This document shows positions 2,983 through 63,674 of a DNA stretch of 64,000 bases, piece after piece (the stretch's first letter is position 1; every line of letters starts with the position of its first letter). The translations under genes and the position numbers were made by a program. Source of the stretch: Thalassobium sp. R2A62 (GTDB lineage: Bacteria > Pseudomonadota > Alphaproteobacteria > Rhodobacterales > Rhodobacteraceae); the NCBI RefSeq assembly GCF_000161835.1, contig NZ_GG697169.2:2670575-2734574 (forward strand), given 5' to 3'. The notes under the pieces were generated by a model. The model had not been told where the DNA came from, searched no databases, and saw nothing but the letters and a program-made list of their open reading frames with translations.

Positions 2983-3825
2983 GTGTTTTCACGGCTCACA
3001 GGCGCCATCGTGCGCGCAATTCTTGTGGTTTTGCTTGTTGCAATGCCATCGCTCCTATTGCCATTCGCGTCGTCGGATACGACGCAAACGGTCACATTGG
3101 TTGCGATCTTTGCTGCGGCGTTCACTCTGTTTGAATACGGATCGACTTATCCCAGCCTTGTTGAATTCCGCGATGCGCCGCCCTTTAATCGCATCCGCTA
3201 CTTGGCCTTATTTACAACGGTTTTGCTGCTGACGCTTATTGCGCGTGGCGCAGTTGACCCAACCAAGATGACGATGCTGCTTAGCGCAATTGGCACATTG
3301 ATCGGCCAGTCCATCGACTTTCCCTACTCACCTGTACGTTTGGTTGTACTCATGATGCCATCCGATACGGACGCCGCGCTCGTGGGGCAGATCCGGACCG
3401 CTGCGGGTCTGAGCTATCTCATTTCGCTGATCTCGCTTGCGGTCTTCCTGATCTGCCTGCGCTTGGGCGGTTGGCCAAACCGTGGCAGCACATTTAACGT
3501 CTGGGTGAACCTACCCACCTTTGACCCAACAGCGGGTTCCGACGTTGTTGAGCGCCTCAACCGCGATGGCCGCGTTAACATTATCTTAGGATTTCTGCTG
3601 CCATTCATTATCCCGACGTTCATGAAACTCGCCGCCGACCTCTTCGATCCCATCACTTTGGGTAATTCGCAGACGATGATTTGGACGATGACAGCATGGG
3701 CGTTCTTACCGGCCAGTCTCTTCATGCGCGGTATTGCGATGGGGCGTGTGGCGCAAATGATCAGCGACAAGCGGCGCCAAACCTACGCCGCAGCAAAACG
3801 CGATGGTGCCTTGGTACCTGCGTAA
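2983..3825 (+). CDS. Conserved multi-pass membrane protein
   Basis: A 280-residue integral membrane protein of unknown function, of a type I associate with Rhodobacterales. I chose the GTG at 2983 (protein begins MFSRLTGAIVRA) because a GAGGG ribosome site lies about eight bases upstream; the frame stays open further upstream without one. Hydrophobic segments lie roughly at residues 8-25, 35-52, 75-90, 98-115, 145-165, 207-222 and 240-258, giving six or seven helices. The tail is basic (DKRRQTYAAAKRD) and probably cytoplasmic. No transporter or enzyme motif is evident. Confidence 0.75.
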   Translation: MFSRLTGAIVRAILVVLLVAMPSLLLPFASSDTTQTVTLVAIFAAAFTLFEYGSTYPSLVEFRDAPPFNRIRYLALFTTVLLLTLIARGAVDPTKMTMLLSAIGTLIGQSIDFPYSPVRLVVLMMPSDTDAALVGQIRTAAGLSYLISLISLAVFLICLRLGGWPNRGSTFNVWVNLPTFDPTAGSDVVERLNRDGRVNIILGFLLPFIIPTFMKLAADLFDPITLGNSQTMIWTMTAWAFLPASLFMRGIAMGRVAQMISDKRRQTYAAAKRDGALVPA

Positions 3826-5126
3826 TCCTAAGTCTTTTTCTAGCTTCAGGGCCGCGTGCAGACACTCTGCGTGTGGCCCTTTTCACATCTGACCTGTCAC
3901 GTGATGGTCCGGGGTTGCTGTTGCAGGATATTCGCAAAGTGGATGATCCTCAGATCACTGCAACGATTGATATTTTGGTTGAGGTTTCGCCTGACATCGT
4001 GGTTCTTGCGGGCTTTGACTATGACCATGGCGGCACTGCTCTTGGGGCGTTTTCTGACGCGCCGAACGATGCAGGGCTTGATCTGGGGCACCGGTATGCC
4101 GCGCATCCTAATTCTGGTTTAATGACCGATCTCGATTCGGACGGAAACGACCGCTTTGGAGAACCCCGTGATGCCCAAGGATACGGCACTTTCAGTGGGG
4201 ACAACGGCATGGCCATTCTGTCGCGATGGGCCGTAGTATCTGAGCAGGCCAAGGACTTTTCAGATCTGGTGTGGCGGGACATTCCCAACGCGAACCTGCC
4301 GATCGTTGATGGCGCCCTGTTCCCTAATTCCAAGGTCTATGAGGTGCAGAGGTTGTCGAGTACGGCCCATTGGGACGTGCCAGTAGCGTTGCCGAACGGG
4401 CAGGTGCTGCACTTGTTGACGCACTATGCGACGCCACCTGTTTTTGACGGACCCGAGGATCGAAACGGGCGACGTAATGCAGACGAGTTGGGCTTCTGGT
4501 CGCACTACCTAACAGGGGCAATGGGGCCTGCGCCAACGACACATTATGTCTTGCCGCCTATCATCGCTGCCATTCGTCTCGCCGAGCCCGGGATCGCCAT
4601 TGAACTGGTGCCCTCTGACGAGAGTGAAAACCTGCTGTTCCGAGAGGCAGACATTGCATTGCGAATGTACCGCCCGACCCAGCTTGATGTGGTGACGCAG
4701 CATATTGGCGACATGGCGTTGGGGTTGTTTGGCAGTCGCGACTATTTGGCGCGAACCACGAAACCAGAGAGCCTAGAAGACATGATGGCGCTCGATCTGG
4801 TTGGCCATGACCGCGAAGAGCGGTTGATCCATGGCCTTCGCGAACGTGGGTTTGATGCGACGCGCGATTGGTTCAAGACACGGGTCGATAATCCGGCAGT
4901 CTATTGGGAATTGGTTCGCGCGGGCTGCGGTGTGGGCTTTACCCTATCCAAGGTCGGACGCGCCGACCCTGATATGATCGAAATTCCAACTGGTATCGAG
5001 ATTGAACCGCTGCCTCTTTGGCTGACCAGTCACGAGGCGATGCGCCACACTCCACGGATTCGCAGGGTCTGGACGTTATTGGCTGAACAGCTCGTCCAAG
5101 TGATCCGCGACGACGCCAAAACTTGA
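3681..5126 (+). CDS. Chimeric ORF: secreted EEP-family fragment fused to a LysR effector-binding domain
   Basis: One uninterrupted frame holds parts of two unrelated families. Counting from the first in-frame ATG (3681), residues about 45-61 are a signal-peptide core ending SGPRA-D. Residues about 62-284 match exported endonuclease/exonuclease/phosphatase proteins (SRDGPGLLLQDI, FDYDHGG, DSDGNDRFGEPRDAQGYGTF, PPVFDGPEDRNGRRN). Residues about 286-481 are a LysR substrate-binding domain (HYVLPPIIAAIR, ENLLFREADIALRMYRPTQLD) without its helix-turn-helix. The EEP part lacks the C-terminal GD-N-type block of that fold. No good start lies near the signal peptide, since 3681 and 3696 overlap the upstream gene by more than 120 bases. 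It is probably a deletion product and non-functional. Confidence 0.8.
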   Translation: MDDDSMGVLTGQSLHARYCDGACGANDQRQAAPNLRRSKTRWCLGTCVILSLFLASGPRADTLRVALFTSDLSRDGPGLLLQDIRKVDDPQITATIDILVEVSPDIVVLAGFDYDHGGTALGAFSDAPNDAGLDLGHRYAAHPNSGLMTDLDSDGNDRFGEPRDAQGYGTFSGDNGMAILSRWAVVSEQAKDFSDLVWRDIPNANLPIVDGALFPNSKVYEVQRLSSTAHWDVPVALPNGQVLHLLTHYATPPVFDGPEDRNGRRNADELGFWSHYLTGAMGPAPTTHYVLPPIIAAIRLAEPGIAIELVPSDESENLLFREADIALRMYRPTQLDVVTQHIGDMALGLFGSRDYLARTTKPESLEDMMALDLVGHDREERLIHGLRERGFDATRDWFKTRVDNPAVYWELVRAGCGVGFTLSKVGRADPDMIEIPTGIEIEPLPLWLTSHEAMRHTPRIRRVWTLLAEQLVQVIRDDAKT

Positions 5127-13989: not shown

Positions 13990-14301
13990 TTAGAACCGCT
14001 CGGCGCGCAGAACTTGGCAATCGGTGATCGTCACCACGCCAATATGCCGTTCGACCACGGCGAACGCCGCATCAAGCAATGCATCAAGACGGTCCTCGCG
14101 AATGATACAAACGAATTGAACCATGCCGCTGGCAGGCGACATTTGGCCAGAACGTGACCAATCACCTGAACGACCAGATCCCCCGAGGACGGGCAGGATC
14201 GTATAGCCCGTCATACCAGCATCCGTCAGGGCATCGCGCAGGCGGCGTTACATGATCGCTTCGATCGCGATCTCGACCAGTTTGGCGTCGTGGGTTTGCA
14301 T
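13990..14301 (-). pseudogene. sbtB: SbtB-like P-II signalling protein, interrupted by a nonsense codon
   Basis: Reading from the ATG at 14301, which lies three bases after the sbtA stop with a GGAAG site, the frame encodes a P-II-fold protein of about 103 residues. Codon 18 is TAA (14250-14248). The sequence resumes in the same frame as RRLRDALTDAGMTGYTILPVLGGSGRSG and continues to the end, so the stop interrupts an otherwise coherent gene; CAA to TAA would explain it. SbtB proteins bind adenine nucleotides and regulate SbtA. Restart at Met 14214 would lose the first strand and helix. It is probably inactive. Confidence 0.8.
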
Positions 14302-14304
14302 GGT

Positions 14305-15272
14305 TCAGCTTCCTGTCACAGCACTTGCCACCGCCACATAGAGCGGGATGCCAACCGTCAGGTTGAATGGAAATGTCACCCCTAGAGATAAGGTCAGATA
14401 AATGGATGGGTTTGCTTCGGGGAGGGCCACGCGCATCGTAGCAGGCACAGCGATATAGGACGCTGATGCCGACAGCACCATGAACAGCGCCCCCCCCGTG
14501 ATAAGCCCCAAGAGCAAACCTGCACCAAGTCCTAAGGTGCTGCCAATCAGCGGCATCAGGACACCAAAGGCGAGGATGCCAGGGCGCAAAATCCCGTTTC
14601 TTCCGCGAAGACCACGACCAGCCACTAGCCCCATGTCCAAGAGGAACAGGCACAGCACGCCCTTGAACGGCGATACGATGAATGGTGCTATTTCTTTGAG
14701 CCCCTCGTCGCCCGTAGCCCAGCCGATAAAGAACGCCCCAACAAGCAGGACAATTGAACCGTTGAGCAAAATCTCACGCCACAACCCTGCGTCCATCCGT
14801 GCATCTGTACTGCCGCGCGAGATCAACCAGAGTGTGGATAGGATCGCAGGGGCTTCCATCGCGACAGCGACCATATAGCCTTCGGACGCGATGCCCGAAC
14901 TCTCAAGTGCTGAAGTCGCAGCAACAAAGGTCACAATGGAAATTGATCCATAGTGGGCTGCGACAGCTGCCACATCCAATCGACTAAGGGATGTGAGAAC
15001 GTTGAGCAACACATAGGCGATCAGCGGCAGCACTGCTGACAGAAGGATGCCCGCTAACAAAGACAACCCTAGCGTTGCATCAATCCCATGATCGGCAACA
15101 CTTACGCCGCCTTTAAATCCAATTGCGAACAACAAATAGATTGAGATCGCCTTGGCCGCAGCCTCGGGCACAGCGAGATCCGAGCGTGCGAGAGAGGCCG
15201 CAACACCCAACGCAAACGAAAAATGATCGGAGACAATAGATTGCTAGCAACAAGCGAAAGTATCTGATCCAT
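14305..15272 (-). pseudogene. sbtA: SbtA-family sodium-dependent bicarbonate transporter, frameshifted near its N-terminus
   Basis: The gene starts at ATG 15272 (MDQILSLVASNLLSPIIF) behind an AGGACA site. It then breaks frame at a run of five T bases (15223-15219 on the minus strand). One added T would join it to FALGVAASLARSDLAVPEAA and give 322 residues, the expected length. The long 3' frame (from 15210) has the SbtA hallmarks: LLFAIGFKGGVS, AAHYGSISIVTFVAA and the C-terminal ANPSIYLTLSLGVTFPFNL, with about ten helices. Only a TTG without a ribosome site could start that frame. It sits between carbonic anhydrase and sbtB. Confidence 0.82.
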
Positions 15273-15293
15273 ATATTGTCCTACTAAAGAAAA

Positions 15294-15944
15294 TTAGACC
15301 GGCAGGAACGCATCCGTATCAGCGTTGTAGAATTCCAGACCACCCTGACCGATGTCTGTCCACAACCCATGTAGAGTGAGGCGTCCATCGGTCACGGCAT
15401 CTTTTACGAACGGAAAGGTCATCAGGTTTTCAAGCGAAGTAAGAACCGCCTCTTTTTCCAACGCGCGGATGCGTGCGGCCTTGTCTTCGATGTCTGACGT
15501 ACGGTCAAAGCCGGGACGCAGAATATCCATCCAACGCCCAATAAAGCTTGTCTTTTCTTCCAGTTCGGGCGCATGGCCGGAACACATGTCATAGCATCCC
15601 TGAACACCGCCACAGCTGGAATGTCCCAGCACGATGATATGCGCAACTTTGAGGCCGGTGACCGCATATTCGACAGCAGCTGATGTGCCATGATTGGCCC
15701 CGTCCGGCAGATACGGTGGCACCAGATTTGCGATGTTTCGGTGAATGAAGAATTCGCCCTGTTCCGCGCCAAAGATCGACGTCACATGCACGCGGCTGTC
15801 GCAGCACGAAATGACCATGGCACGTGGATGCTGACCGTTCTCGGCCAAATTTCGATACCAAACGGCGTTGTCTTGATAGGTCGTCGCTTTCCAACCGTGG
15901 TAGCGTTGAGCCAAATACGACGGAAGGGGTTTGCTATTATTCAT
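15294..15944 (-). CDS. Beta-class carbonic anhydrase
   Basis: Interconverts CO2 and bicarbonate in the cytosol. It has 216 residues from the ATG at 15944; an ATG at 15959 is an alternative. The zinc and active-site residues are visible: Cys48-Asp49-Ser-Arg51 in SCCDSR, and His108-x-x-Cys111 in GHSSCGG. It is the first gene of a three-gene unit with sbtA (about 21 bases downstream) and sbtB, a layout that points to inorganic carbon acquisition. Of the three, this is the only intact frame. Confidence 0.93.
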   Translation of the reverse strand: MNNSKPLPSYLAQRYHGWKATTYQDNAVWYRNLAENGQHPRAMVISCCDSRVHVTSIFGAEQGEFFIHRNIANLVPPYLPDGANHGTSAAVEYAVTGLKVAHIIVLGHSSCGGVQGCYDMCSGHAPELEEKTSFIGRWMDILRPGFDRTSDIEDKAARIRALEKEAVLTSLENLMTFPFVKDAVTDGRLTLHGLWTDIGQGGLEFYNADTDAFLPV

Positions 15945-16087
15945 TGCGGAGGTCCTCATAGTATCGCCGTCGACATAGAGCGTTTTTTAGGGAATTTCGA
16001 GCGATTTCTTGGAAGGGTTGGAAAGGAATTGGGAACCATCACTGGCTAGATTTGTTGTGGGGTAAGTGAAGTGGAAGGAGACAGGTC

Positions 16088-61840: not shown

Positions 61841-61969
61841 TGTGGTCGGATTCATGAATGTTTCTGTGCGCCATTTCTTGCTCATGCCCTTCACACACCT
61901 CTTTCTAGCCGCAACGGGCATCAACCGCCCGCGTCCATTTGAATCGCAGTCAACCAAAAGGGGACAGAC

Positions 61970-62308
61970 GTGAAACTCATCATCGCAACGATCAAACCGT
62001 TCAAGCTCGAGGAGGTGCGCGAAGCGCTCACCACCATCGGCGTGAAAGGCATGATGGTCACAGAAATCAAAGGCTTTGGCGCACAGTCAGGCCACACCGA
62101 GATCTATCGCGGCGCAGAATACGCAGTGAACTTTGTCCCCAAAGTGAAACTCGAAATCGTCGTGGTCGACAGCATGGCTGACCAAGTCGTGTCGACTATC
62201 GCAACAACAGCCAAGACCGACAAAATCGGCGACGGCAAAATCTTTACGCTTGATGTCCAAGGCGCAATGCGCGTCCGCACAGGCGAAACTGGCGACGACG
62301 CCGTCTAA
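61970..62308 (+). CDS. glnK: Nitrogen regulatory P-II protein GlnK
   Basis: 112 residues from a GTG start with AAAGGGGA upstream. The T-loop GHTEIYRGAEYAVNFVPK retains the uridylylated Tyr51, and the ATP/2-oxoglutarate block is GDGKIFTLDVQGAMRVRTGE. Under nitrogen sufficiency GlnK binds AmtB and shuts the channel. It is paired with amtB 22 bases downstream, the almost universal order. Confidence 0.97.
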   Translation: MKLIIATIKPFKLEEVREALTTIGVKGMMVTEIKGFGAQSGHTEIYRGAEYAVNFVPKVKLEIVVVDSMADQVVSTIATTAKTDKIGDGKIFTLDVQGAMRVRTGETGDDAV

Positions 62309-62330
62309 GCGCAGATCAGAGGAAACGAAT

Positions 62331-63674
62331 ATGAAACTGACAAAACTTCTTTTGACAACAGCGGCCCTGGGCACTGCCCCCGCTGCTGTTATGGCGCAAG
62401 AGGCAGGCGTTAACGCCTCGACCGACAGCGTCTTTATTTTCAACTCGCTCTTGTTCCTGATGGGCGGTTTCTTGGTGTTCTGGATGGCCGCTGGCTTTAC
62501 CATGCTCGAGGCTGGCCTCGTACGCAGCAAGAACGTGACCATGCAGCTGACCAAAAACATGGGTCTCTTTTCGCTCGCAGCGATTGCCTACTATTTGATC
62601 GGCTATAACCTGATGTACCCACTGGGTAGCTGGTCGATCGGTACAGACGAGACAGGCGGATACCTCGGTATTCTCTTTGCTCCTGCTGTTCTCGAGGCGG
62701 TTGGCATCGGTGCTGCAGAAGCAGACGACTATAGCTATGCAGCCACCGGTTCGGACTTCTTCTTTCAGTTGATGTTCTGTGCGGCGACAGCCTCCATCGT
62801 GTCCGGCTGCTTGGCCGAGCGCGTCAAACTGTGGCCCTTCCTGATCTTTGTCGCGATCCTGACAGGCATCATCTACCCAATCCAAGCATCTTGGAAATGG
62901 GGCGGCGGCTTCCTCGACAGCCAATACGGCTTCCTCGACTTTGCTGGCTCGACAGTCGTGCACTCGGTCGGTGGTTGGGCGGCTCTTGCTGGTGCTCTGA
63001 TCCTCGGTCCACGTATCGGCAAATACAAAGACGGCCGCACGATCCCAATGATGGGTTCCAACCTGCCGCTTGCCACACTGGGTACATTCATCCTGTGGAT
63101 GGGCTGGTTTGGCTTTAACGGTGGCTCGCAGCTCGCAATGGGCACAGTGGGTGATGTTGCTGACATCTCGCGGATCTTCTCGAACACAAACGCCGCAGCA
63201 TGCGGTGGCGCGTTCACAGCACTGATCCTGACACAGCTTCTCTACAAAAAGCCTGACCTCACCATGATCCTCAACGGCGCACTTGCTGGTCTGGTTGCCA
63301 TCACAGCCGAGCCGCTGACACCATCCTTGGGTGCAGCAACTCTGATCGGTGCCGTCGGTGGTTTGATCGTGGTCTTCACAGTTCCAATGCTCGACAAGCT
63401 GAAAATCGACGACGTTGTTGGCGCGATCCCGGTACACCTCTTTGCAGGTATCTGGGGCACACTCGCAGTCTTGCTGACAAACGGCGACGCAACCCTGATG
63501 GGTCAGCTGATGCCAATCATCATCGTCGGTGTCTTCACCTTCGTGGTCAGCGGTATCGTCTGGTATGTGCTCAAAGCAGTAACAGGCATCCGCGTCTCCG
63601 AAGAGGCAGAAATCGAAGGTCTCGATACTGCCGAACTGGGAATGGAAGCCTACCCCGAGTTTACACGCGGCTAA
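62331..63674 (+). CDS. amtB: Ammonium transporter AmtB
   Basis: 447 residues from ATG 62331, behind GAGGAAACGAAT. A Sec leader ending VMA-QEAG is cleaved. Eleven membrane helices follow. The Phe gate and the pore are marked by FMAAGFTMLEAGLVRSKN-type segment, DFAGSTVVHSVGGWAALAGALILGPRIGKY, the MGWFGFNGGSQLA block with its pore residues, and the twin-His channel position in VHLFAGIWGTLA. It imports ammonium under nitrogen limitation. Confidence 0.97.
   Translation: MKLTKLLLTTAALGTAPAAVMAQEAGVNASTDSVFIFNSLLFLMGGFLVFWMAAGFTMLEAGLVRSKNVTMQLTKNMGLFSLAAIAYYLIGYNLMYPLGSWSIGTDETGGYLGILFAPAVLEAVGIGAAEADDYSYAATGSDFFFQLMFCAATASIVSGCLAERVKLWPFLIFVAILTGIIYPIQASWKWGGGFLDSQYGFLDFAGSTVVHSVGGWAALAGALILGPRIGKYKDGRTIPMMGSNLPLATLGTFILWMGWFGFNGGSQLAMGTVGDVADISRIFSNTNAAACGGAFTALILTQLLYKKPDLTMILNGALAGLVAITAEPLTPSLGAATLIGAVGGLIVVFTVPMLDKLKIDDVVGAIPVHLFAGIWGTLAVLLTNGDATLMGQLMPIIIVGVFTFVVSGIVWYVLKAVTGIRVSEEAEIEGLDTAELGMEAYPEFTRG

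Follow-up and report, generated by a model that had tools for sequence, protein, structure and literature searches.

Does the gene cluster for bicarbonate uptake in Thalassobium sp. R2A62 still encode a working SbtA transporter, or has the transporter been lost? We addressed this question in a 64,000-nt stretch of DNA (the window, meaning the whole stretch analyzed), where the genes lie on the minus strand in the order beta-carbonic anhydrase, sbtA, and sbtB. The features on which the answer depends are as follows:

15294–15959, minus strand: beta-carbonic anhydrase gene, intact and first in the cluster (PF00484, E = 3.9e-45)
15279–15282, minus strand: AGGA, a possible ribosome site for ATG 15272, from the sequence
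15102–15272, minus strand: short frame of 56 codons from the likely true sbtA start, leaving the SbtA frame after ~17 codons
15219–15223, minus strand: run of five T, the point at which the frame is lost; all 105 distinct relatives have a leucine codon here
14305–15243, minus strand: main SbtA frame, which stays open from 15243 until its stop at 14305, with similarity to SbtA from ~15219
13990–14301, minus strand: sbtB (PII-like), interrupted by a stop that was in place when read, otherwise of full length and with a normal end
14248–14250, minus strand: in-frame TAA at sbtB codon 18, from the sequence; 99 of 104 relatives have Glu or Gln there

The main frame belongs to the SbtA family by its sequence over the whole Pfam profile (PF05982, E = 1.2e-103, profile positions 8 to 307 of 308), is 83–84% identical to the loci L083, L084, and L006, and has sodium-dependent bicarbonate uptake as its predicted function. 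Compared with the frame of ATG 15272, it is shifted by one base near 15219–15223. Residues 1–17 read from this ATG, MDQILSLVASNLLSPII, match the N-terminus of relatives (e.g., MDQILSLAATNLLSPII), and the N-terminal part that the main frame lacks was recovered in the other frame directly upstream with a score of 61; since 100 shuffles gave at most 33, the join is not due to chance. The N-terminus was read in 109 other loci, namely 80 from named genomes (the best 80 of 313 confirmed places) and 29 from family genomes, two sets that overlap; the nearest loci are from Tateyamaria, Roseobacter, Sulfitobacter, and the like. Together with two copies of the window's own locus, these 111 loci collapsed to 106 distinct sequences, one of which is the window's, and this step removes the overlap only where sequences are identical. 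All 109 other loci carry a continuous frame from the start through the N-terminal helix (TM1) into the main SbtA frame, a continuity that the window lacks. The comparison with related sbtA genes proposed in the initial annotation therefore bears out its reading of a single gene divided by a one-base shift between the ATG 15272 frame and the SbtA frame, and the five-T run lies where it had been placed.

The first start codon in the SbtA frame is TTG 15210; there is no ATG among the start codons listed for this frame down to 14934, and inspection of the sequence revealed no purine-rich ribosome site before the TTG, just as the initial annotation had described. An open and conserved frame beyond the break would suit a shorter working SbtA starting at TTG 15210 or further downstream, but we regard such a product as very improbable: besides its start lacking a ribosome site, it would lose ~21 residues, including most of the first part of TM1, whereas the N-terminal part is present in 109 of 109 other loci, and sbtB is broken as well. 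In cyanobacterial SbtA, TM1 lies in the gate domain that stabilizes the trimer, with its second part at the trimer interface (PMC8352866). Because TM1 belongs to this trimer-stabilizing domain, a product that lacks the bulk of this helix's first part would, by analogy, be unlikely to represent a working form.

The neighboring sbtB had also been described as broken, which the relatives substantiate. Of the 106 distinct loci, the window's included, 105 carry the gene (the single miss has 49 bases after sbtA), and in the 104 relatives it encodes 102–103 residues and is free of stops in every case. In the window, PII-fold sequence is found downstream of sbtA, with a 74-residue remnant matching PF00543 (E = 3.5e-07) and 77% identity to the SbtB of L083 over 103 columns, including one stop; it is the TAA at codon 18 that interrupts what would be the 102–103-residue frame. 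Of the 104 relatives, 66 have Glu at column 18, 33 have Gln, and 5 have other residues, and in 60 of the 104 the codon is GAA or CAA, i.e., one substitution from TAA. Past the stop, codon 30 is an ATG (14214) at a position that encodes valine in 98 of 104 relatives; a restart there was judged weak because the first 29 SbtB residues would be lost. The cluster contains two types of lesion, a one-base shift and a substitution, in adjacent co-oriented genes, and these disabling lesions have no counterpart in the relatives, as expected of pseudogenes.

Identifying the mutation that hit sbtA bears on whether the break could be a run-length artifact. The missing base had initially been taken to be a T, which is doubtful: a sixth T at the break would encode phenylalanine, whereas the codon at this position specifies leucine in all 105 distinct relatives (CTG, 56; CTC, 20; TTG, 19; CTT, 5; CTA, 4; TTA, 1) and phenylalanine in none (0/105). 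Judging by these codons, the better fit is probably a leucine codon that lost a base other than T. If so, the T run would itself be a product of the deletion, making a run-length artifact less likely. Only 25 of the 105 relatives (those with TTG, CTT, or TTA) have a leucine codon in which the removal of one base would leave the observed letters, whereas the codons of the other 80 need a further change; the leucine evidence would lower, not exclude, the chance of a run-length sequencing error.

A broader form of this concern is that sbtA and sbtB are intact in the strain and that both lesions are false, having arisen through assembly or consensus errors. Such errors would be in keeping with a break that falls at a T run and with a comparison set that contains no close strain or other genome of the genus. 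We nevertheless consider this explanation unlikely, given that a shortened T run is at odds with the universal leucine, that the sbtB lesion is a substitution, which is another type of error, in the very next gene, that the genome (one contig of 3.49 Mb) is 99.99% complete, and that a scan of the window showed no other clear frame break. The codon scan covered 68 coding segments and is blind to shifts in the first tens of codons; one adjacent same-strand pair was checked by the ORF list and some others through Pfam only, with Pfam checks extending to 8 proteins and 20 segments (9 of the 20 segments had no family match). Within the reach of the scan and these partial Pfam checks, no clear case of a gene split in two was found elsewhere in the window. 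A suspected second frameshift at 24.8–25.8 kb turned out to be two overlapping normal genes.

The search for further breaks was extended by comparing the window with mechanical ORFs from 400 kb of the genome G140. At an identity of at least 60%, 35 places were found, 31 of them in one frame and 4 flagged, the latter resembling ORFs that were called on the wrong strand or run too far upstream; this criterion is insensitive, because it missed sbtA itself. At an identity of at least 50%, there were 47 places, of which 11, sbtA included, were open only at reference residue 6 or later. The N-terminal part scored above all 100 shuffles for sbtA and for 5 of the 10 other late-opening places, and did not for the remaining 5. 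Of the five others that did, L214_+_12300, L214_-_1609, L227_+_6694, and L233_-_6402 look like wrong-strand frames, wholly or partly, and L233_-_7245 looks like a frame with its start placed too far upstream. Most of the late openings probably stem from errors in the mechanical ORFs, and the comparison established no further break for certain.

Two further observations concern other parts of the window. On the plus strand, a 481-codon frame (3681–5126) combines an endonuclease/exonuclease/phosphatase-family N-terminal part with a LysR substrate domain, and the stretch searched gave no match to a helix-turn-helix. In several relatives (e.g., G003, G005, G007, G013, and G018), its two parts match separate same-strand genes, the matches beginning ~2–3 kb apart, and from this it looks like an in-frame deletion fusion. 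At 61943–63671 on the plus strand, a PII gene (PF00543) adjoins an ammonium transporter gene (PF00909), and both are apparently intact.

Ribosomal frameshifting at the T run, whether programmed or incidental, could in principle join the two sbtA frames, since a tRNA on the TTT codon at the break could pair again if it slipped back by one base, and the RNA downstream folds slightly better than its shuffles (z = −1.42). The fold is nonetheless unremarkable, with 17 of 200 shuffles as good; the zero-frame codons ATC ATT TTT CGT do not fit the X XXY YYZ heptamer; all 109 other loci read through without a shift; and the break in sbtB would be left unexplained. We therefore view frameshifting as extremely improbable, and we rejected sbtA as a programmed −1 frameshift gene, for which the heptamer and conservation in relatives are lacking and the fold is ordinary.

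How long ago the lesions arose can be judged from the selection on the remaining sequence. In a codon model of 12 sequences, with long branches and a weakly supported tree, omega on the window's sbtA branch was 0.034 versus 0.058 for the background (likelihood ratio, 2.94), and on the carbonic anhydrase branch 0.137 versus 0.084 (likelihood ratio, 2.47), neither clearly different; the branch test for sbtB was saturated. The log likelihood for sbtA fell from −7688.55 with no neutral tip to −7689.68, −7691.47, and −7694.70 with tips of 0.02, 0.05, and 0.1 neutral substitutions per codon, respectively, while that for carbonic anhydrase was nearly flat up to 0.2. By a two-unit rule on the log likelihood, a neutral period of sbtA longer than ~0.03–0.04 neutral substitutions per codon is disfavored. 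Since omega was not raised and a neutral tip lowered the likelihood, the sbtA frame was under selection until very recently; the double lesion would be fresh, and any neutral period very short. Relaxed selection, as a pseudogene would show, was absent from the window's sbtA in the codon model, and an assembly error, or a frame that is still in use, would give this result as well.

Counts of unusual residues point weakly the other way. Private residues, absent from every other copy, placed the window's sbtA second of 106 (8 residues, one an effect of the lesion), its sbtB 10th of 105 (3 residues), and its carbonic anhydrase 35th of 66 (3 residues); the high rank of sbtA is a weak hint of recent relaxation. 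Departures at 95%-conserved columns ranked sbtA sixth of 106 (4 departures, one an effect of the lesion), sbtB 19th of 105 (1 departure), and carbonic anhydrase 27th of 66 (0 departures), which is at most suggestive. Advanced decay, as the initial annotation's reference to decay might imply, is not supported: omega for sbtA is not raised, and a neutral tip lowers its likelihood. The cluster's carbonic anhydrase is intact.

Next to this locus we can set the state of sbtA across the family. An SbtA match was found in 123 of 394 family genomes, distant homologues included, and 100 loci were inspected (that of the window, the best 29 besides it, 12 chosen because they looked broken or partial, and 58 more); 17 matches at 57–62% identity and the majority of the more distant matches lie outside this set. 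In 93 loci sbtA passed as unbroken, among them L121 and L122, which run off the ends of their contigs, and L113 (38% identity) and L183 (29% identity), which are more distant types. The other seven were the window and L112, L114, L115, L116, L117, and L123, a number that is not a rate because broken loci were chosen on purpose. In these six, sbtA is broken or a remnant, each in a way unlike the window's lesion, and some are fragmented drafts of varying quality. sbtB adjoins sbtA in 90 of the 100 loci, four of these at only 34–41% identity, and only the window's carries a stop; it is stop-free in L115, L117, and L123, the three other loci with a broken sbtA in which it was found. Among the literature matches listed, we found no report of sbtA loss in Rhodobacteraceae. 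As a tentative suggestion that we hold to be possible but somewhat doubtful, SbtA may have been lost repeatedly and independently in Rhodobacteraceae, sometimes leaving sbtB or carbonic anhydrase behind, with the present genome at the first step. If true, bicarbonate import would be dispensable or even costly in some niches of the family. Together with the six broken family loci, the present locus provides a natural series on when such bacteria need to import bicarbonate.

On balance, the initial reading of a real loss of sbtA and sbtB stands, in the form of a recent one: the cluster has probably lost its sbtAB transporter pair recently while keeping its carbonic anhydrase. One base would have been deleted in the leucine codon of the first sbtA transmembrane helix, so that ribosomes starting at ATG 15272 would read only ~17 codons of SbtA before continuing out of frame to terminate at 15102, and a separate substitution would have turned sbtB codon 18 into TAA. 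Neither the sodium-dependent bicarbonate importer nor its PII-like partner would then be made, with carbonic anhydrase retained. We infer that the lesions are present in the living strain, that working SbtA is not made, and that the supply of bicarbonate now depends on carbonic anhydrase alone. Carbonic anhydrase is the sole match in the genome to Pro_CA, the only carbonic anhydrase family searched, and it lies upstream of sbtA at >50% identity in 65 of 105 relatives (flank lengths varied). DabA had no match in the genome, which encodes one SulP-family protein. As such, the locus would be a case of ordinary gene loss, fresh and well documented against a good comparative background.

The cluster resembles the cyanobacterial SbtA-SbtB system, homologues of which occur in Rhodobacteraceae, in that a PF05982 transporter gene is followed by a PF00543 PII-like gene in the same order and on the same strand; it differs in the interruption of both genes and in having a beta-carbonic anhydrase gene in front. 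Similarity to the solved SbtA of Synechocystis is low (E = 3.3e-15). A sodium-dependent bicarbonate permease is on record in some SAR11 genomes (PMC10030771). In laboratory-evolved Acaryochloris marina, IS insertions in or near sbtAB are reported (PMC8763236), and the repeated mutation of this region offers a likeness to the present locus. The common sbtAB alleles described there, however, are intergenic IS insertions that arose under laboratory selection, whereas those of the window are intragenic point lesions in a natural genome.
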